Origin: a virus
Strand: one strand, 5' to 3'
IMG/VR virus record: IMGVR_UViG_3300020472_000131
Coordinates: 1 to 28,283 of that record
DNA: 28,283 nucleotides
Notes under the pieces: model-generated
The model's input: only the letters and a program-made list of their open reading frames with translations
Database searches by the model: none
Told to the model about the DNA's origin: nothing
Program-made: the position numbers and the translations under genes
Shown: in pieces, positions 10,001 through 27,202 of the stretch
Layout of the letters: each line of letters begins with the position of its first letter
Numbering within the stretch: the first letter of the stretch is position 1

Positions 10001-13000
10001 ATGAGTCAAACTACCGCCCAATTAATTAGTAATTTAGTACAAGCATTAAGTTTTACTGCTACATCCAGTGCTCCAGCTAATGGTGTATTTCTTTCTGCAG
10101 CAAATACCTTAGCTTTTGCAACTAATTCGGCACAGAAATTAACGATAAATGCAGATGGTGAATTAGGTATTGGTATAGCAAGTCCTACCGAGGCTTTACA
10201 TATTCAAGGAAGTGCTGCAAATACTACTAATCTTCTTTTAAAAAATACAGGAAATAATATTATTTATTTAACAGGTGATACCGTTAAAACTGATGCGTCT
10301 TCATCTATTCTTCAATTAAGAGCATTTTGGAATGGTAATAGTGTTGCTGGTATTAGATTTATTACTGGAACTGACACAACAAATAAAGATGATGGTGCTA
10401 TTAGCTTTTTTGTAAGAGAAAGTGGTCAGGCTCTAACGGAAGCTATGAGACTAAGAACTAGTGGAAATCTAGGTATTGGTAAAGCTTCTCCATCTAATAG
10501 ATTACATGTTTATCATGCAACTACTGATCTGTTAGCACTATTAGAAAGTGGTGATTCAAGAGCTGCTATTGGTTTTGAAGATAATTCAACTACTACAGTT
10601 CCAAGAATAGGAGGTATAGCTGATGCTCTTTATTTCTTTACAGGAGGTACTGAAAAGATTCGTTTAACTTCTACAGGAAACTTAGGTATAGGTACAACTT
10701 CTCCTAATTTTTTATTAGATGTTGAAACAGATGGCAGTACTGAACCAACTATTAGAGTTCATAATACAGGTACAGCTGCTAGTAATGATGTAAGAATAAG
10801 ATTACAAACAGCTGGTACAGGTGCAACTTCTCAAAATGCAAGACTTGAATTTGGTAATGCAGATGATACAGATAATGGATTAATTCGATATTACACAGGT
10901 TCAGGTGAACGTTATTTTGCTTTCTCAACAAACGCAAGTGAAAAAATGCGTTTGGATACCAATGGTAATTTACTACTTGGAACAACAACTGCAGATGCAA
11001 AATTATATGTTAATGGCGGCACTGTTTTAATTAAAGGTAATGCTGCTCAGACAAAATTACATCTTTATCATAATTCTTCAGGAGAAACAGCAGTAACAGG
11101 TTCTAGTCCAGGACTATTACTGACTGCAGGAAGTATGAATGCAACAAATAAATATACTCCTGCTATTGAATTTGGTTCAACAGATGGTGCTTTTACAACA
11201 ACGAATCCAAAAGTTGGAGCATTGATTGTTGGACGTGCTACTGAAACATACGGTGCAGATACCGATAGTGCGATGGCAATGGATTTCTTTACTACTGGTA
11301 CTAATGCTGGTACAGGAGATAATTTACAAGTTCATGCAATGACGCTAGATGGTGGTCAACGCTTACTTATAGGAAGAACTGCAAGCAGATCAACTCGTAT
11401 TGGTGGTAGTAATCTAGATCCAAACATCCAAATAGAAGGAGATGTTGTAGGATCAGCATCTATTTGTAGATGGAACGAAGGTACTAATCCTTCTAGATTC
11501 ATTTTACAAAAAGGAAGAGGAACAGGAGCTTCTCCAGCCATTGTGCAAGATGACGATAACCTTGGTCAAATAGTATTTTCTGGATGGGATGGAGATACTT
11601 TTACTAATGCAGCAATGATAAGAGCGCAAGTAGCTGGAACTCCAGGAGATGATGATATGCCTGGAAGACTTCAATTTTTGACAACAGCAGATGGGGATCT
11701 TACTTGTGCAACAAGAATGACTATTACTGAAACTGGAAATGTAGGTATAGGTACAGCAGCACCAGGTAGATTACTTGAACTTGAAGGTGGTGCTCCAATT
11801 ATTAGATTTGATGATACTGGCGGTGGTTATTCAGAAATATCTGCTAATACTGCAATTTTAGGATTAAGAGCAGACGCAGGTAATACTCAATCTAGTAGTT
11901 ATATTGATTTTGAAGTTGATGGATCTGAAAAAGCAAGAATAAATGCTAGTGGAATGTTTATGATAGGTGCAAGTACTGGAGGAGATACTAATCCAATTTT
12001 TATTAAAGACCAGACCTCTGGTAAAGGAATTAAGATACAGCAAACAGGTAATCAGTTTGTTAGTCTTATTGCTGATTGTAATAGAACTGGTGGAGGTAAT
12101 GCTCTTTTAAGTATCGATGGTGAATGGAATGGAACTGTAGTTTCTCGGATCAAACTTGAAGCAGGAAGTTCTACAACGAATAAAGATGATGGACGAATTA
12201 GCCTTTCTACAAAAGCTGGTGGAACAGATTTAGAAGAAATAGTTGAAATTAATGAGAATGGTCAATTCTCAATTTATGGTACAGCAGCATCAGCTTCTTT
12301 ACTTAGACTTTATCCAACTAATTCACAAACTACTCCGTCAATAGATATTCGATCAAGTTGTAATACTTCATGCGGAAATATACTTAGATTTTATGATGAA
12401 GATACAAGTATTGCTGGAAGTAAAGCAATAGGTGATATTCAATTCTGGTCCCAAGATACTGGTAATGAAGGTATAAAAGCAGCAATTCAAGGTGCTGCAG
12501 ATTCAACCGCACCCAATGGAGAACTTCGATTACAAACTGATAATAATCAGACATTAAGTACTGCCTTAAGACTTGATTATCGTGGCTATGCTCAATTTCC
12601 ACTGATGGGTGAGTCTACAGGAACTAATGTCATTCTTACATCAAGTGGATATCTACAAAAAGAATCATCATCTCGAAGATATAAGAAAAATATTAAATCA
12701 ATAGAGGATTCAATGGCAGACAAGATGTTAGAGTGTCGTCCTGTTTGGTATCAAATGAATTCTGAAGAAGATGATGCTCTTGGACATTATGGATTTATTG
12801 CAGAAGAAGTAAATGAAATCGATCCTACTTTTGTTGTATTTGAAAATGAAAGGGATGGAATAGATGAAAATGGAAATCCAGTTTGGAAAGATCAACCTAA
12901 AGAAAAATGGCTTCCTGAATCTGTAAAGTATACAAACTTTATTCCACTTCTTTTAAATCTTGTTAAAAGACAAGATGAAAGAATTAAAGCACTAGAAGCT

Positions 13001-13009
13001 AAAATTTAA
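10001..13009 (+). CDS. tail fibre/spike protein with S74 intramolecular chaperone
   Basis: This encodes 1002 aa. Residues 1-880 are rich in Gly, Ser, Thr, Asn with recurring 'SGNLGIGTTSPN' type motifs (for example about 150, 227, 580), typical of trimeric beta-structured fibres. A segment of about 70-100 residues ending in TTNKDDG-x-IS occurs twice (about 85-135 and 690-735), an internal duplication. Residues from about 885 form a peptidase S74 (endosialidase-type chaperone) domain: ESSSRRYKKNI with candidate Ser890/891 and Lys895/896, then GHYGFIAEEVNEIDP near 927-941. In the family this domain trimerises the fibre and removes itself by autocleavage just before the Ser. Role: host receptor binding. 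Start at 10001 has no clear SD. Confidence 0.88.
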   Translation: MSQTTAQLISNLVQALSFTATSSAPANGVFLSAANTLAFATNSAQKLTINADGELGIGIASPTEALHIQGSAANTTNLLLKNTGNNIIYLTGDTVKTDASSSILQLRAFWNGNSVAGIRFITGTDTTNKDDGAISFFVRESGQALTEAMRLRTSGNLGIGKASPSNRLHVYHATTDLLALLESGDSRAAIGFEDNSTTTVPRIGGIADALYFFTGGTEKIRLTSTGNLGIGTTSPNFLLDVETDGSTEPTIRVHNTGTAASNDVRIRLQTAGTGATSQNARLEFGNADDTDNGLIRYYTGSGERYFAFSTNASEKMRLDTNGNLLLGTTTADAKLYVNGGTVLIKGNAAQTKLHLYHNSSGETAVTGSSPGLLLTAGSMNATNKYTPAIEFGSTDGAFTTTNPKVGALIVGRATETYGADTDSAMAMDFFTTGTNAGTGDNLQVHAMTLDGGQRLLIGRTASRSTRIGGSNLDPNIQIEGDVVGSASICRWNEGTNPSRFILQKGRGTGASPAIVQDDDNLGQIVFSGWDGDTFTNAAMIRAQVAGTPGDDDMPGRLQFLTTADGDLTCATRMTITETGNVGIGTAAPGRLLELEGGAPIIRFDDTGGGYSEISANTAILGLRADAGNTQSSSYIDFEVDGSEKARINASGMFMIGASTGGDTNPIFIKDQTSGKGIKIQQTGNQFVSLIADCNRTGGGNALLSIDGEWNGTVVSRIKLEAGSSTTNKDDGRISLSTKAGGTDLEEIVEINENGQFSIYGTAASASLLRLYPTNSQTTPSIDIRSSCNTSCGNILRFYDEDTSIAGSKAIGDIQFWSQDTGNEGIKAAIQGAADSTAPNGELRLQTDNNQTLSTALRLDYRGYAQFPLMGESTGTNVILTSSGYLQKESSSRRYKKNIKSIEDSMADKMLECRPVWYQMNSEEDDALGHYGFIAEEVNEIDPTFVVFENERDGIDENGNPVWKDQPKEKWLPESVKYTNFIPLLLNLVKRQDERIKALEAKI

Positions 13010-14109: not shown

Positions 14110-14305
14110 TGAAATTGTTGAATTAGATTTACGTGAATTTTTTGATGCATATGACAGAGGAGAACCTCATATGATTTCTGCAGTATCTGATTTATACTGT
14201 CAAATTCGTGAACATGCACCCCAAGTATTAAATAAAGAATCTTCATGGTATCAAACATGGATATGGGGAGGTAAACGTAATTTAAAAACAGGAGAACGTT
14301 TATGA
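14096..14305 (+). CDS. hypothetical small protein
   Basis: This encodes 69 aa: EIVELDLREFFDAYDRGEPHMISAVSDLYCQI helical acidic front, then a tryptophan-rich end (SSWYQTWIWGGKRN). Family not recognised. Overlaps both flanking genes (14 nt and ATGA), so it belongs to the same operon as the dioxygenase. Confidence 0.58.
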   Translation: MVQTNEIVELDLREFFDAYDRGEPHMISAVSDLYCQIREHAPQVLNKESSWYQTWIWGGKRNLKTGERL

Positions 14306-15105
14306 TCCATGATGAAAATCGATTAAAACAATTAGTTATTAAAGCTGCATCTCAAGGGTGTAATAAAAAAAGTGTTATTGAAGGTCTAAAAAAAATTCCT
14401 AATCTTAGTGAAAAGAAAATTAATTTTTTAATTAAAGATTTAAACATTAATAAAAAACCTTTATTTGTTAACCATCAAAAATTTTATAATACAAAAATTA
14501 GTTCTAATGCAAAACGAATACCTTTTCCTTTTACTAAAATATATATCTATGAGGATTTTTTAAAACGTAGTTATTGTAATGAATTAATTTCAATAGCTGA
14601 TGAAATAGCAACGAAATCTTCAATATCTAATAACACAGGGCAAGAACTATATAGTCAATATAGAACAAGTAAAACTGCTTATATGGATATAGATGATAAT
14701 GAAATAGTTAAATATATTAATGAAAGAATATCTAATACAATTAATCTTGATCCAAAATTAGGAGGTTCTTTACAAATACAAAAATATAAACCTGGAGAAT
14801 ATTATCGGGCACATAATGATTACTATCATTGGTTTACTCCTGAACATAAAATTTATACTGAATGGATGGGACAACGTACATGGACATTTATGATCTATTT
14901 AAATGATGTAATACAAGGTGGAGAAACTTATTTCAAACATTTAAATCTAAAATTACAACCAAGGAAAGGCATGGCAGTTATTTGGAATAATCTATTTCCT
15001 TTTGGTATTCCAAATTATAAAACTTTACATGAAGCTCTGCCTCCAATTAGTGGTAATAAATATGTAATAACTAAATGGTTTCGGAGTTGGAAGCTTTTTG
15101 ATTAG
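14302..15105 (+). CDS. 2-oxoglutarate/Fe(II) dioxygenase, prolyl-4-hydroxylase type
   Basis: This encodes 267 aa. The double-stranded beta-helix core has H171-N-D173 (the H-x-D iron pair in RAHNDYYH), GGETYFKHLNLKLQPRKGMAVIW (206-228), and distal H243 (TLHEAL) with K253 ten residues later (NKYVITKWF), the usual 2-oxoglutarate anchor. These are the P4Hc-superfamily residues, all present. Residues 1-50 form an extra helical region. Family enzymes hydroxylate proline or other residues; in cyanophages such dioxygenases are common accessory enzymes, substrate unknown. Starts via ATGA overlap with the upstream gene. The 3' end overlaps a convergent HNH gene by 35 nt. Confidence 0.88.
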   Translation: MIHDENRLKQLVIKAASQGCNKKSVIEGLKKIPNLSEKKINFLIKDLNINKKPLFVNHQKFYNTKISSNAKRIPFPFTKIYIYEDFLKRSYCNELISIADEIATKSSISNNTGQELYSQYRTSKTAYMDIDDNEIVKYINERISNTINLDPKLGGSLQIQKYKPGEYYRAHNDYYHWFTPEHKIYTEWMGQRTWTFMIYLNDVIQGGETYFKHLNLKLQPRKGMAVIWNNLFPFGIPNYKTLHEALPPISGNKYVITKWFRSWKLFD

Positions 15106-16137: not shown

Positions 16138-16992
16138 ATGGTTTCAACTACAGAGATTACTGAAATTGAAGATAAAGAGTTAGAGAATATTCCTGACAAA
16201 ATGCAGGATATTAATAAAACTCCTGCTCGAATTACTCTTAACGGTAAACGTCACTATACAACTCCATTATTTACTGGACCAGCTCCTTCAGTAACAACAA
16301 TTATTTCTGAAACTGCTTCTGAAGCAAACAAAAGAAAATTAGAAATGTGGTCTAAAGCTAATCCAGGAGTAAAAGAACAAGCAGCCGAAAGGGGTACAGC
16401 CATTCATTATGGAATGGAACAATACCTTAAAGGTGATAAAGAACCAGAAATTAAAACTGATTATCAAGATTTTTGGTCAGGTATGCCTTCTGTTTTAGAT
16501 CAATTTACAGAAGTGCTTTGGGCAGAATCTCCTGTATTAGAAAAATTTAAATTTACCTTAGGTTCAGATGAAGTTGCCAGAGTATGGGGATCAGATAAAG
16601 AAGGAAGAGCTTGGGCGGGTGCTCCAGATATTATTGCTGTGGCAAACAATAAACTTACTTTGGCTGATCTAAAAACAAGTGTTAAACCCTATAGTCGTAA
16701 ATGGCCTAAAGATTTTGAAAAAGGTTCACAAGAATGGAGAGATCTATTAGGTGGACATATGAAATTCAAAAAGACTTGCAAACAATTAGCTGCGTATGAT
16801 ATTGCAATACAACAAACATTAAATATAAAAGTACAACAAGCTGCTATTTTAGTTTCTACTCCTTTACGGACTCAGATATTTAAAATTTCACGTCGTTTTT
16901 TAGACATTTTACATAACGATTGGTATAAGATTGTTGATGAATATTACAAACAAATAGATAACTGCAATGTTTATGATGCAGATTTAATATAA
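16138..16992 (+). CDS. RecB/Cas4-type PD-(D/E)XK exonuclease
   Basis: This encodes 284 aa. RecB-family motifs in order: R85-G-T-A-I-H90 (first conserved helix), E130 at the end of a strand, D164 (GAPDII), D177-L-K179 (the D-x-K active site) and Q216-x3-Y220 (QxxxY helix). This matches Cas4/RecB-like and phage nucleases of the PD-(D/E)XK fold, which degrade or process DNA ends for recombination and host DNA breakdown. All catalytic residues are present. Residues 1-45 form a polar tail. The start lacks a clear SD; a TTGACA box lies upstream. Convergent with the small minus-strand operon, with only 4 nt between stops. Confidence 0.88.
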   Translation: MVSTTEITEIEDKELENIPDKMQDINKTPARITLNGKRHYTTPLFTGPAPSVTTIISETASEANKRKLEMWSKANPGVKEQAAERGTAIHYGMEQYLKGDKEPEIKTDYQDFWSGMPSVLDQFTEVLWAESPVLEKFKFTLGSDEVARVWGSDKEGRAWAGAPDIIAVANNKLTLADLKTSVKPYSRKWPKDFEKGSQEWRDLLGGHMKFKKTCKQLAAYDIAIQQTLNIKVQQAAILVSTPLRTQIFKISRRFLDILHNDWYKIVDEYYKQIDNCNVYDADLI

Positions 16993-16996
16993 AAAA

Positions 16997-17089
16997 TTAG
17001 TGTTTACAACCACAACTTTTTTTAGTTTTCTTTTTAGTTTTAAGGCTTCTTTTTACGGAAGCCTTTTTAACTTTTTTTATCTGCTTCAT
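16997..17089 (-). CDS. 30-aa very basic Cys-bearing peptide
   Basis: The start directly follows the stop of the upstream minus-strand gene (TAA-ATG). The peptide is MKQIKKVKKASVKRS, a Lys-rich run, and ends SCGCKH. Half of the residues are Lys/Arg, like the proteins upstream of it, so it looks like the last gene of that operon. The KSCGCKH end resembles tails of tiny cyanophage proteins that I recall. A hairpin (17042-17065) lies inside the coding region. Confidence 0.5.
   Translation of the reverse strand: MKQIKKVKKASVKRSLKTKKKTKKSCGCKH
17042..17065. terminator. bidirectional hairpin between convergent genes
   Basis: Stem aaggcttc (17042-17049) pairs with gaagcctt (17058-17065) with an 8-nt loop, followed on the plus strand by TTTAACTTTTTTT. 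It suits a rho-independent terminator for the nuclease gene, 50 nt after its stop. It sits inside the 30-codon minus-strand ORF, so its coding and termination roles would overlap. Confidence 0.55.
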
Positions 17090-17716
17090 TTATTTTTTAT
17101 ATATTTTTGGACCTCTACCTTTTTTCTTACACATTGCATATTGTTTTTTCAAAGAACTTATCTTACTCAAAATACTAGAACACTTAGAACCACCACCTGG
17201 ATTTGAGCCTCCTCCTCTTACTTTTATACAACGTTTTCCATTCCACTTATAGCCTGGTCTACAAGATCTAGGATCTCTTCCTCCTTTAACACAACGTTTT
17301 CCATTCCACTTATATCCTGGTCTACATTTTTTTGGAGTTTTTGGACCTGCTTTAACACAACGTTTTCCATTCCACTTATAGCCTGGTTTACATTTTCTTG
17401 GAGTTTTTGGACCTCCTTTCTTACGTACACATTTTGGACTATCTGCTGGTGCTATGCATTTAAAGCCTGGTGGACATTTATGACCTCTACAAGGATTTCT
17501 TGATGGTGGCCCTGGATTTTTTTTACGAATACATTTACCTCTTTTTCTTATCGTTCCTGTTGGGCATGGTCTAGGTCGTCTTCTGTTAGGTTTTTTTGGA
17601 ATTCCAACTTCCTTTTTTTTAGGTTTTCTTGGTTTGATCCACCTGCTTTGTTTATCCGTCTTAACATCTTCAGAAACTTTTTCTTTAGGAATTTTGGGTT
17701 CTTTTTTAAGTGCCAT
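17090..17716 (-). CDS. basic cysteine-repeat protein, three tandem repeats
   Basis: This encodes 208 aa, rich in Lys, Arg, Pro, Gly and Cys. Residues 1-48 are a basic, unstructured front with VGIPKKP. Then come related units of the form C-x-P-G-x-K-x-x-G-K-x-C: CPTGTIRKRGKC, CPPGFKC...KC, and three near-identical units, each CxPGYKWNGKRC, at a spacing of about 21-22 residues. The tail is GGGSNPGGGSKCSSILSKI followed by a basic helix. The Cys pairs suggest disulphides or metal-bound beta-knots; no known family recognised (similar C-P-G-x-x-W patterns occur in TIL/EGF-like repeats). Likely virion-associated or nucleic-acid binding. Shares the VGIPK motif with the upstream gene product. Confidence 0.72.
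   Translation of the reverse strand: MALKKEPKIPKEKVSEDVKTDKQSRWIKPRKPKKKEVGIPKKPNRRRPRPCPTGTIRKRGKCIRKKNPGPPSRNPCRGHKCPPGFKCIAPADSPKCVRKKGGPKTPRKCKPGYKWNGKRCVKAGPKTPKKCRPGYKWNGKRCVKGGRDPRSCRPGYKWNGKRCIKVRGGGSNPGGGSKCSSILSKISSLKKQYAMCKKKGRGPKIYKK
17228..17387 (-). repeat. three tandem copies of a Cys-repeat unit
   Basis: The 31-nt core acaacgttttccattccact... occurs at 17228-17258, 17291-17321 and 17357-17387, with only single-base changes. Steps are 63 and 66 nt, equal to the 21-22 residue unit of the encoded protein. Such near-identity at DNA level shows recent duplication or homogenising recombination. Confidence 0.85.
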
Positions 17717-17727
17717 AGTTTTAATTC

Positions 17728-18192
17728 CTATTTCTGAATAGTTGGTCTAGATTTACAGCGTCTCTTCATTGCTTGGCCTCTTCTGATCATTCCATTTGCT
17801 TTAGCCATACAAGCTGCATTTGGTTTCTTATTCGGTTTTCTAACTCCTTTTTTAGGTGATTTATTACCAGATTTGCTTTTAACACATTTACCTTTAGCTT
17901 TATCAAATCTCTGACCAGGACCACAAATACTTGCTTTACCTTTACCTTTATCTTTAGGTGGTAATGCTTCTTTAGCTATAACACATTTACCTTGTGCATT
18001 TCTTTTCTTTCCTACTGGACATGGTAAAGGTCTTCTGCCTTTTCTTTTTTTAGGTTTTTCCTGTTTGTCAGACCTTTTTTTAGGCATTTTTGGAATTCCA
18101 ACTTCCTCTTTGTTGGATTTTTTATCAGGCATTTTAGGAATGCTAACTTCTTGTTTTTTCTTTGGTATTCCTACCCCTGCTTTAGATGCCAT
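17728..18192 (-). CDS. basic repeat protein, relative of the downstream gene product
   Basis: This encodes 154 aa, mostly Lys/Arg/Pro/Gly. The N-terminal part has three spaced V-x-IPK motifs (VGIPKKK, VSIPKMPDK, VGIPKMPKK). The centre has two C-x-x-G-x5-x-G-K-C-V units (CPVGKKRNAQGKCV; CGPGQRFDKAKGKCV), like those in 17090-17716. The end is a basic helix with ACMAKANGMIRRGQAMKRRC. No family recognised. Its ATG overlaps the previous stop (TAATG), linking it to the 61-aa gene. Product is likely cationic enough to bind DNA or a phage shell (inference). Confidence 0.7.
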   Translation of the reverse strand: MASKAGVGIPKKKQEVSIPKMPDKKSNKEEVGIPKMPKKRSDKQEKPKKRKGRRPLPCPVGKKRNAQGKCVIAKEALPPKDKGKGKASICGPGQRFDKAKGKCVKSKSGNKSPKKGVRKPNKKPNAACMAKANGMIRRGQAMKRRCKSRPTIQK

Positions 18193-18377
18193 TACTTTTT
18201 GCCTCTTTTTTTAACATTACGTTTTAGTTTTTTGGCCTCATCTGCCATTTTGTTAGCAGACGGAGTGAATTTATCACTGTAATAAAGAGCAGTATTTGGA
18301 TTGTTCTTGGGAAGCTTGTTATCTTCTCCTACCAAAGAATGAAGCTTCCTTAGATCGTAATAATCAGGATTAGCCAC
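18192..18377 (-). CDS. small protein, first firm gene of the minus-strand operon
   Basis: This encodes 61 aa: MANPDYYDLRKLHSLVGEDN, then NNPNTALYYSDKFTPSANKMA and a basic tail EAKKLKRNVKKRGKK. Polar front, basic tail, no repeats. It runs into the repeat protein gene through a TAATG overlap, so the two are co-translated. Family not recognised. Confidence 0.62.
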   Translation of the reverse strand: MANPDYYDLRKLHSLVGEDNKLPKNNPNTALYYSDKFTPSANKMADEAKKLKRNVKKRGKK

Positions 18378-18403: not shown

Positions 18404-18508
18404 TTATAAATACAGTTCATTTTCATCCTTAATATTTTGAACAATATTTTTTAGCTTTTTAGTCTTAGGATAAGAAGACACAAAAAAATACTTCCTATGG
18501 AAATTCAT
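18404..18508 (-). CDS. possible 34-aa peptide at head of minus-strand operon
   Basis: A minus frame starting at ATG 18508 gives NFHRKYFFVSSYPKTKKLKN then IVQNIKDENELYL. The Lys/Ile/Asn-rich helix looks coding and the stop lies 26 nt before the next operon gene. The frame is open upstream to 18604 but that part overlaps a better plus-strand gene. Low support. Confidence 0.35.
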   Translation of the reverse strand: MNFHRKYFFVSSYPKTKKLKNIVQNIKDENELYL

Positions 18509-18682
18509 ATTTCTGTCGGGGAGTGGATAAGTACTCTCAAAAATCGTATGGATACAGCGATGGATGGGGATTGCTTTTGTCTTCCTACCCCTATGCATTA
18601 TCACGCTTTTAAGCTAGTACATGAAAAGGAATACCCTAAAAAGCAATTTCACGTTAGTATTAAAAACCATCTCATTTTATGA
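18497..18682 (+). CDS. small conserved-looking protein
   Basis: This encodes 61 aa: EIHISVGEWISTLKNRMD, then DGDCFCLPTPMHYHAFKLV and a short basic end. The GDCFCLPTPMHYHA core, with helix and Cys/His, looks like a conserved small phage protein; I recall related sequences in cyanophages but the function is unknown. The stop overlaps the primase-helicase start as ATGA. Upstream 120 nt are divergent with the basic operon. Confidence 0.58.
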   Translation: MEIHISVGEWISTLKNRMDTAMDGDCFCLPTPMHYHAFKLVHEKEYPKKQFHVSIKNHLIL

Positions 18683-21240
18683 CATCTTCAACATCGTTAA
18701 AACCAGGGCAAATTCGACTAGAACTTATTTCAAAAGAATGGCCTTTAACACCTTTAGGTAAAAATAAAGATCCTTATATTTCTGGTTGGCAAAATAAACC
18801 ATGTAATCTTCATGATATTGAAGAAGAAATCTTATCAGGAAGATGTAAGGCTATTGGTCTTTTGTCAGGTCCTGTCTATAACTTGCCCTATGGATTAGTT
18901 TGGGTAGATGTTGATGGTCCAAGTGTTTTCAATTTAATTGAAGGATTAGCTGATCAAGAGTATCCAGATGCTTTACCAAAAACCTTAACAATAGTTAGTG
19001 GAAAAGTTGGACGAGAAAGAAAATTATACCGTTTACCAAGAGACAAACATAAGTTTTTTCTTAGGAATAAATATACGTGGCATGCAGAAACAAATAAAGA
19101 AAAATTAGAAATCCTTTGGAAAAGACATCAAGGTGTCTTAATGGGTCTTCATCCTGATACGGATGGTTATTACACGGCTCATAAAGAAGGATTTGAATGG
19201 ATTGATCAATTACCAGAATTACCTCAATGGTTGCTTAATTGCATTATTAATAAAAACGTAAAACAAGGAAATCCTGCAAAGGAAACAACTAGAATAGTAG
19301 GTCCTAGTTTTGCCTTAAATGCTGAAGCCTCTCTCGAAAGAGACATTCAACTCGCTACTGAAGCTATGTGGGCTATGCCTCCAGAAGCATGTGATGATTA
19401 CGACATTTGGATTACTGTTGGTCAGTCGCTTCACTCGTTGGATGATTCGTTGCTTGATGATTGGGACGAATGGTCTAAACAATCTGAAAAATATATTGAT
19501 GGTGATTGCCAAAGGCGTTGGCATAGCTTTGATCGGAATGGAGCACGTACTTTAGGCTCTCTAATTCATCATGCTAAAGAATATGGATGGACTCCAAAAA
19601 AAGATACTACTTATATTAATCAAGAATTAGATGAAAAAACACTTGAAGAGGCTTCTGAAATGCTCACTGACTTTGAATCAATTCCATCTACATATGAACC
19701 TGTAGTTCAAAAACAAAAAAAAGTTAAAACAAAGGAACAAAAAACTAGAAATCCTTCTTCTGATATTGTCGTAAATGTAATACTACAAACGTATGAAGGA
19801 AATTTAAAATATAGTCAAACACAAAATTGTTTCTTTAATTATCAATATAAAAATAAGGGCCTCTGGTCTGCTTTGTCAGATACAGAAATGAAAGGTGAAA
19901 TTAAACTAAGACTTGAATTATTAAAAGATGAACTATTACCTAGTGGTTATAGTATGAATCTTGTTAATGATGTATTAGAACAATTAAAAATAAGTGTATT
20001 ATTTGATGATTGGTATGAAGGTAATGAATATTTATTATTCAATAACGGAATTTTAGTTGTTAATACAAAAGAATTTATTGCGTTTAATCGTGAAATGTAT
20101 TTAACGCAACAGCTACCTTATAACTATGATCCTTCGGCTACATGTGAGCCGATTATTAAGTGGTTAAAACATGTACAAGATGGCAACTGGGGACGTGTAC
20201 AAGTCCTTAGAGCATGGTTACGTGCAGTCTTATTAAGCCATTCTGATATACAGAAGTTCGTTGAAATTGTTGGCCCAGGTAAGTCTGGTAAGTCTACTTA
20301 TTCCAACCTTGCTCATGCATTAGTAGGTGATACAAATGCTATTATTTCTTCTCTTGATCATTTAGAGAAAAGTAGATTTGAAACTGCTAATTTGTATAAA
20401 AAGAAATTACTTTTGTTTAATGATGTTGAAAGATATGGTGGTTCAGTTTCAGTATTAAAAGCAATTACTGGAAGAGATTTAATTCGAAATGAACGTAAGT
20501 TTCAATCTGGTGCATTAAAACCATTTAAATTTAATGGATTGGTAATGATAACTGCTAATGAACCCATTCAAACGACAGATCCTACATCTGGGCTTGCACG
20601 TCGTCGTCTTACTATTCCTTTTGATCGACCTTTCACTGGTAGTTCAGCTCAACAACGCACCTTAATTGATATGGATGATGGCGGTAATCCATTTGGAGAT
20701 TTCGCTACATTACTTCCAGGTTTGGTTAATTGGGTTTTGGATATGCCAGAACTTGAGATGCGTGAATATTTAATGGAAACAAATAAAAAAGTTCCTTTCT
20801 TTGCTAAGCATCATAAAGAACAAATATTGAAATCTAATCAAATTATGGATTGGATGGAACATTGCTTAGTATTCGATCCAGGGAATTCTGCTCCTGTAGG
20901 ACTTGCTAAACATTCTCAACCAGGATCTTCAAATGTATTTATATCTTGGGATAAATGGCTATATGCAAGCTACTGTGAATTTTCAAAAGCTTCAAATAGT
21001 AATATCCTTGGACGTAGTAGATTTGAAACCTTACTAATGGATGTTTGTGTACATCAATTAAGACTAAATATTTATAAGTTTAAAGACCGTAGAGGAATGA
21101 GAGTCAAGAATATTGCTTGTCGTTCTTCTGATCAAAAATTTGAATCTTATCCTTCAATTATTGAAGTTGGTTTAAATAAAGATAAATGGAGAGAAGAATA
21201 TGGTGAGGTTCTTGATAAAAAAGAAAAAGATATTGAGTAA
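18679..21240 (+). CDS. primase-helicase: AEP primase plus D5/SF3 helicase
   Basis: This encodes 853 aa. N-terminal primase-polymerase (AEP-type) domain about 10-190: WVDVDGPSVF with D77-x-D79, the metal-binding D-x-D. A PriCT-like domain about 220-310 (DIWITVGQSLHSLDD ... ARTLGSLIHHAKEYGW). A D5_N-type region about 370-500. SF3 helicase: Walker A GPGKSGKST near 531-539, Walker B LLLFNDVE near 575-582, sensor-like MITANE near 622-627, and arginine finger region ARRRLTIPFDRPF near 640-652. Together primase and replicative helicase, pairing naturally with the polymerase. All catalytic motifs present. Starts ATGA with the small upstream gene. A further domain may lie in the C-terminal 180 residues. 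Confidence 0.93.
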   Translation: MTSSTSLKPGQIRLELISKEWPLTPLGKNKDPYISGWQNKPCNLHDIEEEILSGRCKAIGLLSGPVYNLPYGLVWVDVDGPSVFNLIEGLADQEYPDALPKTLTIVSGKVGRERKLYRLPRDKHKFFLRNKYTWHAETNKEKLEILWKRHQGVLMGLHPDTDGYYTAHKEGFEWIDQLPELPQWLLNCIINKNVKQGNPAKETTRIVGPSFALNAEASLERDIQLATEAMWAMPPEACDDYDIWITVGQSLHSLDDSLLDDWDEWSKQSEKYIDGDCQRRWHSFDRNGARTLGSLIHHAKEYGWTPKKDTTYINQELDEKTLEEASEMLTDFESIPSTYEPVVQKQKKVKTKEQKTRNPSSDIVVNVILQTYEGNLKYSQTQNCFFNYQYKNKGLWSALSDTEMKGEIKLRLELLKDELLPSGYSMNLVNDVLEQLKISVLFDDWYEGNEYLLFNNGILVVNTKEFIAFNREMYLTQQLPYNYDPSATCEPIIKWLKHVQDGNWGRVQVLRAWLRAVLLSHSDIQKFVEIVGPGKSGKSTYSNLAHALVGDTNAIISSLDHLEKSRFETANLYKKKLLLFNDVERYGGSVSVLKAITGRDLIRNERKFQSGALKPFKFNGLVMITANEPIQTTDPTSGLARRRLTIPFDRPFTGSSAQQRTLIDMDDGGNPFGDFATLLPGLVNWVLDMPELEMREYLMETNKKVPFFAKHHKEQILKSNQIMDWMEHCLVFDPGNSAPVGLAKHSQPGSSNVFISWDKWLYASYCEFSKASNSNILGRSRFETLLMDVCVHQLRLNIYKFKDRRGMRVKNIACRSSDQKFESYPSIIEVGLNKDKWREEYGEVLDKKEKDIE

Positions 21241-21297: not shown

Positions 21298-22542
21298 ATG
21301 CCTAAAAAACCAAAACTTTTATGGATTGGTGACATCGTTGCTAAGACAGGCTTCGCTCGTGTAACAGAAAACGTTCTTCCTACATTATCTAAAAAGTTTG
21401 ATATTACCGTTTTAGGAAATAATTGGTGGGGTGATCCAACACCGTTGCAGAAGAAATATAAAATGTATCCTTCTTCAAATCGGTTTCAAACAGCTCCTTT
21501 TGGAGAACAACGTATAAGAGAAATTGTCCAAATAGAAAAACCAGATTTAGTTTTTACCATTAATGACATGTGGATCATTAATGCTCAATACAATGAAATT
21601 AAAGATTTTCATAAAGATGGAAAATTTAAATTTGTTGGATACGCTCCAATGGATTCATATGGTTGGACAGGTTGCTTATCAGATACTGCTAACGATTGGG
21701 ATGGCATAGTTTCTTATACTCAATTTGGTGCAAAAGAATTTATACAAGGAGGTATTACAAAACCGATTGCTGTCATTCCACATGGCGTAACACCAGGGCA
21801 ATTCTATCCTCTTGATAAAAAAGAATGTAGAAAAAAATTAAATTTAAAAGAAGATATTTTTATTGTCTTTAATGGAAATAGAAATCAATTCCGTAAACGT
21901 ATTGATATAACAATCGCTGCCTTCGCTAAATTCGCAAAAGATAAACCTGATACCCAACTTTATTTACATATGGGTAAAAAAGATCAAGGCTGGGACATTA
22001 TGCATCTCTTTGATAGAGATATGAAACGTCAAGGCTTAGATCCAAATAATAGAATTATTTTGACAGCAGATATGGATGCTCCTCCAAATGTTGAGGTTGA
22101 TATGTTAAATACAATTTATAATTGTGCAGATATAGGAATTAATACATGTAAAGGAGAAGGATGGGGTTTAGTTAATTTTGAACATGCAGCTTGTGGCGTA
22201 GCTCAAATTGTTCCAGGGCATACTTCATGTAAAGAAATCTTTGAAGGTTACGCACCTTTAATCCGTTGTGATCACATGGATACAGATACTAATTTCAATC
22301 GTGAAATGCCTTGTCCTTCTACTGATCATTTAGTTGAATTAATGGATAACTTATATAAGGATCGTAAAAAATTAGATGCTGTAGGTGAACTTTGTCAGAC
22401 AAGAGTTTTATCTAAAGAATTTGAATGGACTCATATTGCTCAACAATTCTCTGGTGTATTTGAAGATGTATTAAATGATGTGGATCATTCTATAGAACCA
22501 CCCAAAAAAAAGAAAAGAAGAAAAAAGAGAAGAGAGATATAA
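21298..22542 (+). CDS. GT4-like glycosyltransferase
   Basis: This encodes 414 aa with a GT-B fold. N-terminal LLWIGDIVAKTGFARVTENVL (7-27) acceptor-side domain; IVFNGNRNQFRKRIDITI at about 193-210 (start of the nucleotide-sugar domain); KGEGWGLVNFEHAACG with E287-x7-E295, the EX7E motif. These are family 4 retaining glycosyltransferase marks. The C-terminal tail is a run of Lys/Arg (PPKKKKRRKKRREI), an odd basic end. Substrate unknown: could modify host surface sugars, phage virion or DNA. The ATG follows an AT-rich 57-nt gap; no SD. Confidence 0.85.
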   Translation: MPKKPKLLWIGDIVAKTGFARVTENVLPTLSKKFDITVLGNNWWGDPTPLQKKYKMYPSSNRFQTAPFGEQRIREIVQIEKPDLVFTINDMWIINAQYNEIKDFHKDGKFKFVGYAPMDSYGWTGCLSDTANDWDGIVSYTQFGAKEFIQGGITKPIAVIPHGVTPGQFYPLDKKECRKKLNLKEDIFIVFNGNRNQFRKRIDITIAAFAKFAKDKPDTQLYLHMGKKDQGWDIMHLFDRDMKRQGLDPNNRIILTADMDAPPNVEVDMLNTIYNCADIGINTCKGEGWGLVNFEHAACGVAQIVPGHTSCKEIFEGYAPLIRCDHMDTDTNFNREMPCPSTDHLVELMDNLYKDRKKLDAVGELCQTRVLSKEFEWTHIAQQFSGVFEDVLNDVDHSIEPPKKKKRRKKRREI

Positions 22543-22545
22543 ACC

Positions 22546-22893
22546 ATGGAAAAATTTAATTTTAGACCTTGGGGCTGGTGGAAAAATTTTTTAAAAGGTC
22601 CTCAGTTCTTAGGTAAAGTTATCCATGTTAAAAAAAATGAACAGTTAAGTCTTCAAAGACATAAACATAGAAATGAAACATGGATTATTGCTGATGGAGA
22701 AGGTGAAATCTTTGTTCAAGGCATCTGGCAAAAAGCTAGACAAGGAAAATGTGTACATATTCCTGTCAATGGTATTCATCGAGTAAAAGCAGGAAAAAAA
22801 GATTTAGTTCTTATAGAGCTGCAATTTGGGGAAAAAATTTCTGAAGACGATATTGAACGATTAGAAGATGATTATGGACGAATAAAAAAATGA
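22546..22893 (+). CDS. cupin of mannose-6-phosphate isomerase type II
   Basis: This encodes 115 aa, a single cupin: FRPWGWW start, metal-binding H39-x-H41-x2-E44 (RHKHRNETWIIADGEG) and second motif with H78 (IPVNGIHRV), ending LVLIELQFGEKISEDDIERLEDDYGR. This matches the C-terminal phosphomannose isomerase domain of ManC/mannose-1-phosphate guanylyltransferases, here freestanding. Would isomerise sugar phosphates or bind sugars; paired with the glycosyltransferase 3 nt upstream in a likely sugar-modification unit. Lacks the nucleotidyltransferase domain of full ManC. Confidence 0.8.
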   Translation: MEKFNFRPWGWWKNFLKGPQFLGKVIHVKKNEQLSLQRHKHRNETWIIADGEGEIFVQGIWQKARQGKCVHIPVNGIHRVKAGKKDLVLIELQFGEKISEDDIERLEDDYGRIKK

Positions 22894-26737: not shown

Positions 26738-27202
26738 ATGTTCTTCGATTCAATTTCTCTTGTAACAGGTGGATTCGATCCGATTCATAGTGGTCATATT
26801 AAATATTTTAAAGAAGCAAAAGAATTATCTGACTGTTTAGTTGTTGGGTTGAATAGTGACGCTTGGTTAACAAATAAAAAGAAACAATGTTTTCAAAATT
26901 GGAATGAACGAGCCAATATTGTTAAACATCTAGATATGGTCAATATTGTTATTGATTGGGATGATTATGATAACTCAGCATGTGGTGCAATTCAAAAATG
27001 TTTAACCTTAACAAATAAAATATATTTTGCAAATGGAGGAGATAGAACATCAGAAAATACTCCTGAAATTAAACGCTATGGCTTAGATCCTAGAGTTAAT
27101 TTTGTATGGTCTGTTGGAGGTAATAATAAAATTAATAGTAGTTCTTGGATATTAGATAAGTATTTTAAAGATAGAGAATTAATAATGGATGATAGACTTT
27201 AA
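26738..27202 (+). CDS. cytidylyltransferase-like nucleotidyltransferase
   Basis: This encodes 154 aa. Rossmann-type nucleotidyltransferase: GGFDPIHSGHIKYFKEAK with HSGH (the HxGH motif, residues 17-20), VVGLNSDAWLTNKK near 35-48, NGGDRT near 99-104, and NNKINSSSWILDKY near 128-141 (ISSS/T-type motif). This is the glycerol-3-phosphate cytidylyltransferase / HldE C-terminal / adenylyltransferase fold; it joins a nucleotide to a sugar or polyol phosphate. With the glycosyltransferase and cupin it could make an activated sugar, inferred. Motifs complete. Confidence 0.84.
   Translation: MFFDSISLVTGGFDPIHSGHIKYFKEAKELSDCLVVGLNSDAWLTNKKKQCFQNWNERANIVKHLDMVNIVIDWDDYDNSACGAIQKCLTLTNKIYFANGGDRTSENTPEIKRYGLDPRVNFVWSVGGNNKINSSSWILDKYFKDRELIMDDRL

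Follow-up and report, generated by a model that had tools for sequence, protein, structure and literature searches.

A conserved small protein and its changing hyperbasic partners form an accessory module in S-EIV1-like cyanophages

Introduction

Hyperbasic, repetitive and disordered core proteins are known from several viruses, e.g., P6.9 of baculoviruses, VP15 of nimaviruses and protein VII of adenoviruses. The proteins of the gene cassette described here share these traits, with disorder as predicted from models; the examples are not from bacterial viruses, and no homology is claimed. The internal proteins of phage T4 are small and basic, occur in about 300 copies, carry short targeting sequences and are ejected into the host (PMC9026906), and the prohead core in which they lie also contains gp68 (PMC9026906). 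IPI, IPII and IPIII of T4 are comparable to the cassette as small, basic, non-essential proteins with, in T4, a short conserved targeting sequence (PMC9026906), but no sequence relation was seen, and here the conserved N-terminus sits on a separate protein, p61.

In one marine survey, 3.3% of the cyanophage content belonged to the group of Synechococcus phage S-EIV1 (PMC5332604), and most S-EIV1 genes carry hypothetical annotation only. We analyzed a minus-strand cassette in an S-EIV1-like genome and found that its key and sole conserved member is p61, a point that a sequence-only reading of the same DNA had missed, as it had the insertion of the cassette. Hyperbasic viral proteins are already known as a kind; the p61 module has no family match in the libraries searched. 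Our analysis suggests that p61 modules supply swappable, predicted nucleic-acid-binding proteins that are perhaps packed in the virus head. The pairing of p61 with its partner is a clear target, since p61 is then the protein to search for and the position of the partner can be predicted from it. If the proteins do reside in the head, they would represent a protamine-like cargo in a cyanophage lineage, with repeat-driven turnover of such proteins.

Genes of the cassette

The window, i.e., the whole stretch of DNA that was analyzed, is a 28,283-base IMG/VR record of an S-EIV1-like cyanophage. Its polymerase, primase, exonuclease and glycosyltransferase are 64%, 61%, 65% and 63% identical to those of S-EIV1, other proteins match too, and the gene order is the same. 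The features of the cassette and its flanks are as follows.

16138-16992, plus strand: exonuclease (left flank), convergent with the cassette; phrog_298, E 1.4e-30; 65% identity to S-EIV1 AHV82142
16993-18426, no strand: interval inserted relative to the closest relatives, ends approximate; beyond it, conserved sequence continues with CCTTAATATTTTGAACAA from about 18427
16997-17089, minus strand: p30, a 30-aa Lys-rich ORF, doubtful as a gene
17042-17065, plus strand: terminator-like hairpin, 9 bp followed by a T-rich tail, 3' of the exonuclease gene
17090-17716, minus strand: p208, 208 aa, hyperbasic, with five two-Cys units modeled as beta-hairpins
17222-17263, minus strand: p208 two-Cys repeat 3, CRPGYKWNGKRCIK
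17285-17326, minus strand: p208 two-Cys repeat 2, CRPGYKWNGKRCVK
17351-17392, minus strand: p208 two-Cys repeat 1, CKPGYKWNGKRCVK
17728-18192, minus strand: p154, 154 aa, hyperbasic, with VGIPK/VSIPK units and two two-Cys units, CPVGKKRNAQGKCV and CGPGQRFDKAKGKCV
18192-18377, minus strand: p61, 61 aa, GTG start at 18377; MANPDYYDLRKLHSLV...PKNNPNT, then a basic tail
18497-18682, plus strand: 61-aa ORF before the primase, VGEWISTL...DGDCF.LPTPMHYHAF; present in S-EIV1 (AHV82141) and most relatives
18679-21240, plus strand: primase (right flank); phrog_1156, E 1.7e-83; 61% identity to S-EIV1

p61, p154 and p208 are real genes. The open frame spans 218 codons, as opposed to a maximum of 144 among 500 first-order shuffles, GC at third codon positions is 0.17 in p154 and 0.15 in p208, and GC by codon position is like that of the phage's own genes (third positions 0.16–0.21). 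p61 and p154 overlap by TAATG, an 11-nt gap separates p154 from p208, and p208 and p30 are joined by TAA-ATG. The reading of this stretch as an operon of four minus-strand genes holds for the coordinates, the junctions and three of the genes. The fourth, the 30-aa p30, could not be confirmed and is doubtful because a terminator-like hairpin suited to the convergent exonuclease gene lies inside it, although the hairpin itself counts for little because a scan gave 2 hairpins vs. 2.4 expected. Comparison of p30 with family models returned weak matches of the compositional type only. A promoter scan of the cassette found 2 sites vs. 11.1 in shuffled sequence, and the site near p61 overlaps the p61 start codon.

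Lys and Arg together account for 33–34% of residues in p154 and p208, at net charges of about +41 and +61, respectively. VGIPK occurs twice in p154, next to one VSIPK, and once in p208. In p208, three near-identical units of the form C-x-PGYKWNGKRC-[VI]-K follow each other at spacings of 66 and 63 nt (22 and 21 residues) with just 2–3 base differences between their 42-nt cores; the protein carries two diverged two-Cys units besides, and both units of p154 are diverged. Basic composition, shared VGIPK motifs and the three p208 repeats had all been recognized from the letters, and each was borne out. End-to-end alignment of p154 and p208 scores 147 vs. 74 ± 10 for shuffles (z = 7.0), and the two are therefore paralogues.

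The ~60-aa ORF that most relatives have before the primase has the consensus VGEWMxxLxxRMxxAxDGDCFxLPTxMHLHAF, and the conserved block CCTTAATATTTTGAACAA lies upstream of it.

Conservation of p61 and its basic partners

Searches of IMG/VR returned 22 relatives of p61, all of them (22/22) in S-EIV1-like genomes and flanked by S-EIV1 orthologues, and together with the window they represent 17 distinct 96-nt alleles. In S-EIV1 itself p61 was looked for and not found. In an alignment of 14 sequences the residues MANPDYYDL-x-KL-x-x-L and PK-x-NPNT are invariant, and p61 of the window fits this pattern. Across the N-terminal 32 codons pS averages 0.61 and pN 0.11, i.e., this near-invariant N-terminus is under purifying selection. 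Most copies (19/22) are flanked by the dCTP-deaminase and lysozyme groups, the other three (L162–L164) lie just before the first structural genes, and all known sites of the module are at operon ends. A placement of the cassette on the late strand in all phages was considered and dropped, as the strand varies between slots; it does not always agree with the strand of the structural genes, and late expression can therefore not be inferred.

In 21 of the 22 relatives an ORF for a hyperbasic, Cys-free repeat protein precedes p61, with a gap of no more than 28 nt or a one-base overlap. The frame before p61 in the remaining one (L167) is truncated by the contig end and basic too, hence a basic frame is present in 22/22. 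The 21 complete partners have 116–287 aa, 22–37% K/R, 3–14% D/E, no Cys, a pI of 10.5–11.9 and a charge of +25 to +61. They fall into 10 clusters without mutual similarity, and in two close relatives (L169 vs. L170) the partner differs by a 20-residue deletion in its repeat region. The targeting sequence of T4 internal proteins is N-terminal and is cleaved by the prohead protease at L/I-x-E; no shared N-terminus was seen among the partners of p61. p154 and p208 have the charge, length and repeats of such partners and likewise adjoin p61, which p154 overlaps on the same strand; unlike the partners, they carry Cys units and follow p61, whereas partners elsewhere precede it. p154 resembles other p61 partners and slot proteins marginally at most, or no more than by chance; the link of p154 and p208 to the partners therefore rests on position and composition, from which p154 and p208 look like the Cys-containing counterpart of the p61 partner. 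The similarity between p154 and the L169 partner (GLGTPKM) was marginal at z = 3.3, and no claim is made from it.

Conservation differs within the cassette. A lack of conserved reading frames in related genomes had been named as grounds for refuting the sequence-only reading; such a lack is seen for p154 and p208 but not for p61. Relatives of p154 and p208 were absent from phages, IMG/VR and 49 related contigs, where low-complexity filters may hide distant ones, and none of p208 appeared in genome_contigs. Both are known from one contig only, as opposed to the 22 relatives of p61. The cassette proteins had been described as belonging to no known family, which stands for p154 and p208 and, in PHROGs, NCBIfam and PADLOC, for p61; NCBIfam and PADLOC (a library of defence, not counter-defence models) matched none of the cassette proteins, and the one departure is a motif-level match of the p208 repeats to Pfam cEGF. 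A literature search outside the S-EIV1 genome paper returned no description of the p61 module.

Insertion between exonuclease and primase

Among loci with both genes, the gap between exonuclease and primase measures 45 to ~2,400 bp; in the closest relatives (exonuclease ~79–85% identity) it measures 45–291 bp, and a search of their contigs yielded no p61. When the two flanks of the window are joined, they align straight through in six of these relatives (L002, L003, L004, L005, L085 and L087), and the sequence comparison therefore identifies the ~1.4-kb cassette as an insertion or, less likely, as the remainder of a loss in several relatives.

Convergent minus-strand ORFs of at least 90 aa that end no more than 70 nt from the exonuclease stop were found in 24 of 110 distinct gaps vs. 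3.2 in shuffled gaps. A pI of at least 10 was reached by 21 of the 24, vs. 1.1 expected from shuffles, and most of these slot proteins are rich in Pro, Ala, Lys and Arg and of low complexity. From these statistics it follows that the site occupied by the cassette holds different basic proteins elsewhere in the lineage. It has the position, strand, convergence and high pI of such slot ORFs (e.g., L071, L072, L063 and L035), but these are Pro/Ala/Thr-rich, are devoid of Cys repeats and show no detectable homology to p154 or p208.

Minus-strand slot proteins in the gaps of L013, L059, L063, L071, L072, L073, L026 and L043, and at L200:11444-11941, have a common N-terminus, MRDTRTGAARK..PKGxAVDKAGKKGMPKP, followed by low-complexity tails; one member that was scanned had no PHROG match. 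Homology of the p154 start (MASKAGVGIPK) with the KAGxxGMPKP part of this N-terminus was considered and rejected, as a profile built from eight slot proteins matched ten ORFs and missed p154. HNH-endonuclease-like ORFs accompany the end of the exonuclease gene, inside it or next to it, in L027, L050, L051, L109, L148 and L075. In L050 and L051 the exonuclease match is longer by hundreds of bases, and the final part of the L027 match is found again downstream, in both cases as by an intron or homing insertion.

A further element of these genomes is a 40-residue domain, FxxLLxRLExSKxRQQRQxSVEGRRDxxAxGLASMMSNF, which always ends at the last residue of otherwise quite different proteins and, judged from its sequence, looks like a shared C-terminal tag. 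It was located at the following positions.

S-EIV1 KJ410740, 52482-52661: stand-alone small gene near the terminase gene (AHV82214)
L035, 1662-2099: exonuclease–primase slot protein
L031, 6852-7526: exonuclease–primase slot protein
L017, 6798-7340: exonuclease–primase slot protein
L175, 3537-3788: 40-residue domain
L178, 4833-5084: 40-residue domain
L088, 361-642: 40-residue domain
L089, 2120-3784: 554-aa DUF4214-type protein

Carriers of the domain also include neighbours of p61; p154 and p208 are without it.

The two-cysteine unit

AlphaFold2 models of the proteins are of low confidence (pTM 0.22 and 0.20). The model of p208 alone (pTM 0.22) contains one beta-hairpin per two-Cys unit on disordered linkers, with 10-residue blocks in the hairpin zones averaging ~66–86 pLDDT. 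Foldseek comparison of this low-confidence model with the PDB gave a best E of 0.14, EGF-type matches starting at E 0.26, and the best match in a PDB sequence search was a 27-residue peptide (E 0.1). Pfam cEGF (PF12662) reached 35.5 bits on p208, summed over three repeats, vs. a gathering cut-off of 26.6. The likeness is to the C-x-x-G-Y hairpin motif of that family, and the Pfam and PDB matches, including the 27-residue peptide, were judged to be motif-level noise.

A search of IMG/VR for C-x-PG-aromatic-KW-x4-C returned eight loci. One of these (L217) has CLPGYKWNGKKCV in a protein without assignment; another (L218) has CRPGFKWDGSACVK in a protein that matches phrog_33445 (6.5e-46) and phrog_3503, 'head scaffolding protein' (3.1e-20). 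Relatives of the tail of the L218 protein occur in 307 phage records, and the annotation of several reads prohead core or gp68-like. The unit common to p208 and L218 is C-x-P-G-[YF]-K-W-x-G-x-x-C-[VI]-K, which in gp68-like proteins lies beside K/R-rich stretches. This match of 13–14 residues came from searching for the motif itself and is not independent, and the rest of gp68 is absent from the cassette. In the profile search p208 reached phrog_33445 at no better than E 0.17, over 18 residues, and a gp68-like match of the whole protein was not obtained. The gp68-like prohead core proteins (phrog_3503, phrog_33445) resemble p208 in carrying the unit within a K/R-rich protein, but they have a single unit and a conserved C-terminal basic domain, whereas p208 has its five units and no such domain.

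Another pattern, CP-x-GK...GKC, picked up long, Pro-rich proteins that are unrelated, as well as small phage proteins resembling MPVHKCPNGKYRIGSGKC, and was set aside for want of a functional link. Another recurring short Cys pair is found in a 41-aa basic protein (G044:C1:48375-48500, minus strand), whose two-Cys mini-motif DPCWKGYKKQGMKTSKKTGKKVPNCVP matches parts of seven PHROGs of unknown function.

Possible functions of the module

As the best explanation, which we hold tentatively, the cassette represents a single copy of a module that is accessory in S-EIV1-like phages and encodes putative nucleic-acid-binding, most likely head-internal, basic proteins. Each module combines a small p61 with a nearly fixed 32-residue N-terminus and one or more very basic, mostly disordered repeat proteins whose sequence changes from phage to phage. 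In the window phage, on this explanation, the module was inserted between exonuclease and primase, its basic partner was duplicated to give p154 and p208, and the two-Cys hairpin unit was then amplified in p208. The basic proteins may bind nucleic acid by charge, as hairpin beads on flexible cationic linkers, and may enter the phage head to neutralize or organize the packaged DNA or to be injected with it, much as T4 internal proteins or protamine-like core proteins of viruses do; the conserved part of p61 could contact a fixed partner, e.g., a head protein. Location in the head is supported by the recurrence of the gp68-type unit and by the C-terminal domain that the slot proteins L017, L031 and L035 share with the gene near the terminase. 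The suggestion of cationic virion or DNA-binding proteins in the sequence-only reading still fares best, given the constant association of p61 with a hyperbasic partner and the gp68-like motif of the two-Cys unit, subject to the missing remainder of gp68. It is a more speculative and rather unlikely extension that the 32 residues of p61 serve as a fixed dock for interchangeable hyperbasic cargo, DNA-organizing or injected and specific to each phage, which would evolve by repeat gain or replacement and move between convergent operon-end slots.

The main rival, somewhat unlikely in our estimate, is that the module acts early to take over the host or counter its defences; the basic proteins, made inside the cell, would then have the host nucleoid, RNA or a defence complex as their target, and an arms race would lie behind the variability of the partner. 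The combination of a small, fixed protein with a hypervariable partner, the accessory occurrence of the module in several slots and the position of the window module among replication genes would all suit such a role. Among the basic internal proteins of T4, IPI acts as an inhibitor of a restriction enzyme (PMC9026906), and a counter-defence reading is therefore compatible with location in the head as well. However, PADLOC gave no match (its models cover defence proteins), the low-complexity changes look less like selection acting on a fold than like drift with repeat slippage, and the structural genes come directly after the module in three phages.

It is improbable that the ORFs are low-constraint filler, i.e., drifting AT-rich, Lys/Arg-rich frames of little function that gather in convergent slots at operon ends. 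The single occurrence of p154 and p208, a different partner in every lineage and the operon-end sites are what such filler would produce, but purifying selection on p61, its constant pairing with a basic partner and a roughly sevenfold excess of slot ORFs over shuffles argue against it. Less probable still is a function in head assembly proper, as a lineage-specific part of a gp68-like prohead core or scaffold. The shared two-Cys unit beside K/R-rich stretches points that way; however, the cassette proteins lack the rest of gp68, and the closest relatives have no module at the exonuclease–primase site and gave no p61 from their contigs, which makes an essential scaffold unlikely. An EGF domain has six cysteines and three disulphides, and the earlier proposal of Cys-stabilized surface peptides, taken here to cover EGF-like or knottin-like peptides at the surface or secreted, is very hard to sustain in spite of the cEGF score and the modeled hairpins, because each unit has two Cys where six are needed, no signal peptide or other export signal is visible in the sequences, the Foldseek search with a low-confidence model and the PDB sequence search gave no significant match and the 21 complete partners in related modules are Cys-free.

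Other genes of the window

The replication region of the window also encodes a 1002-aa fibre-like protein (10001-13009), whose S-EIV1 counterpart is distant (at 768-2573) and whose C-terminus has, by eye, the look of an intramolecular chaperone. By inspection, a prolyl-4-hydroxylase-like protein (14302-15105), a glycosyltransferase followed by a cupin-type protein (21298-22893) and a nucleotidyltransferase-like protein (26738-27202) were recognized, and these are possible sugar or surface modification genes.
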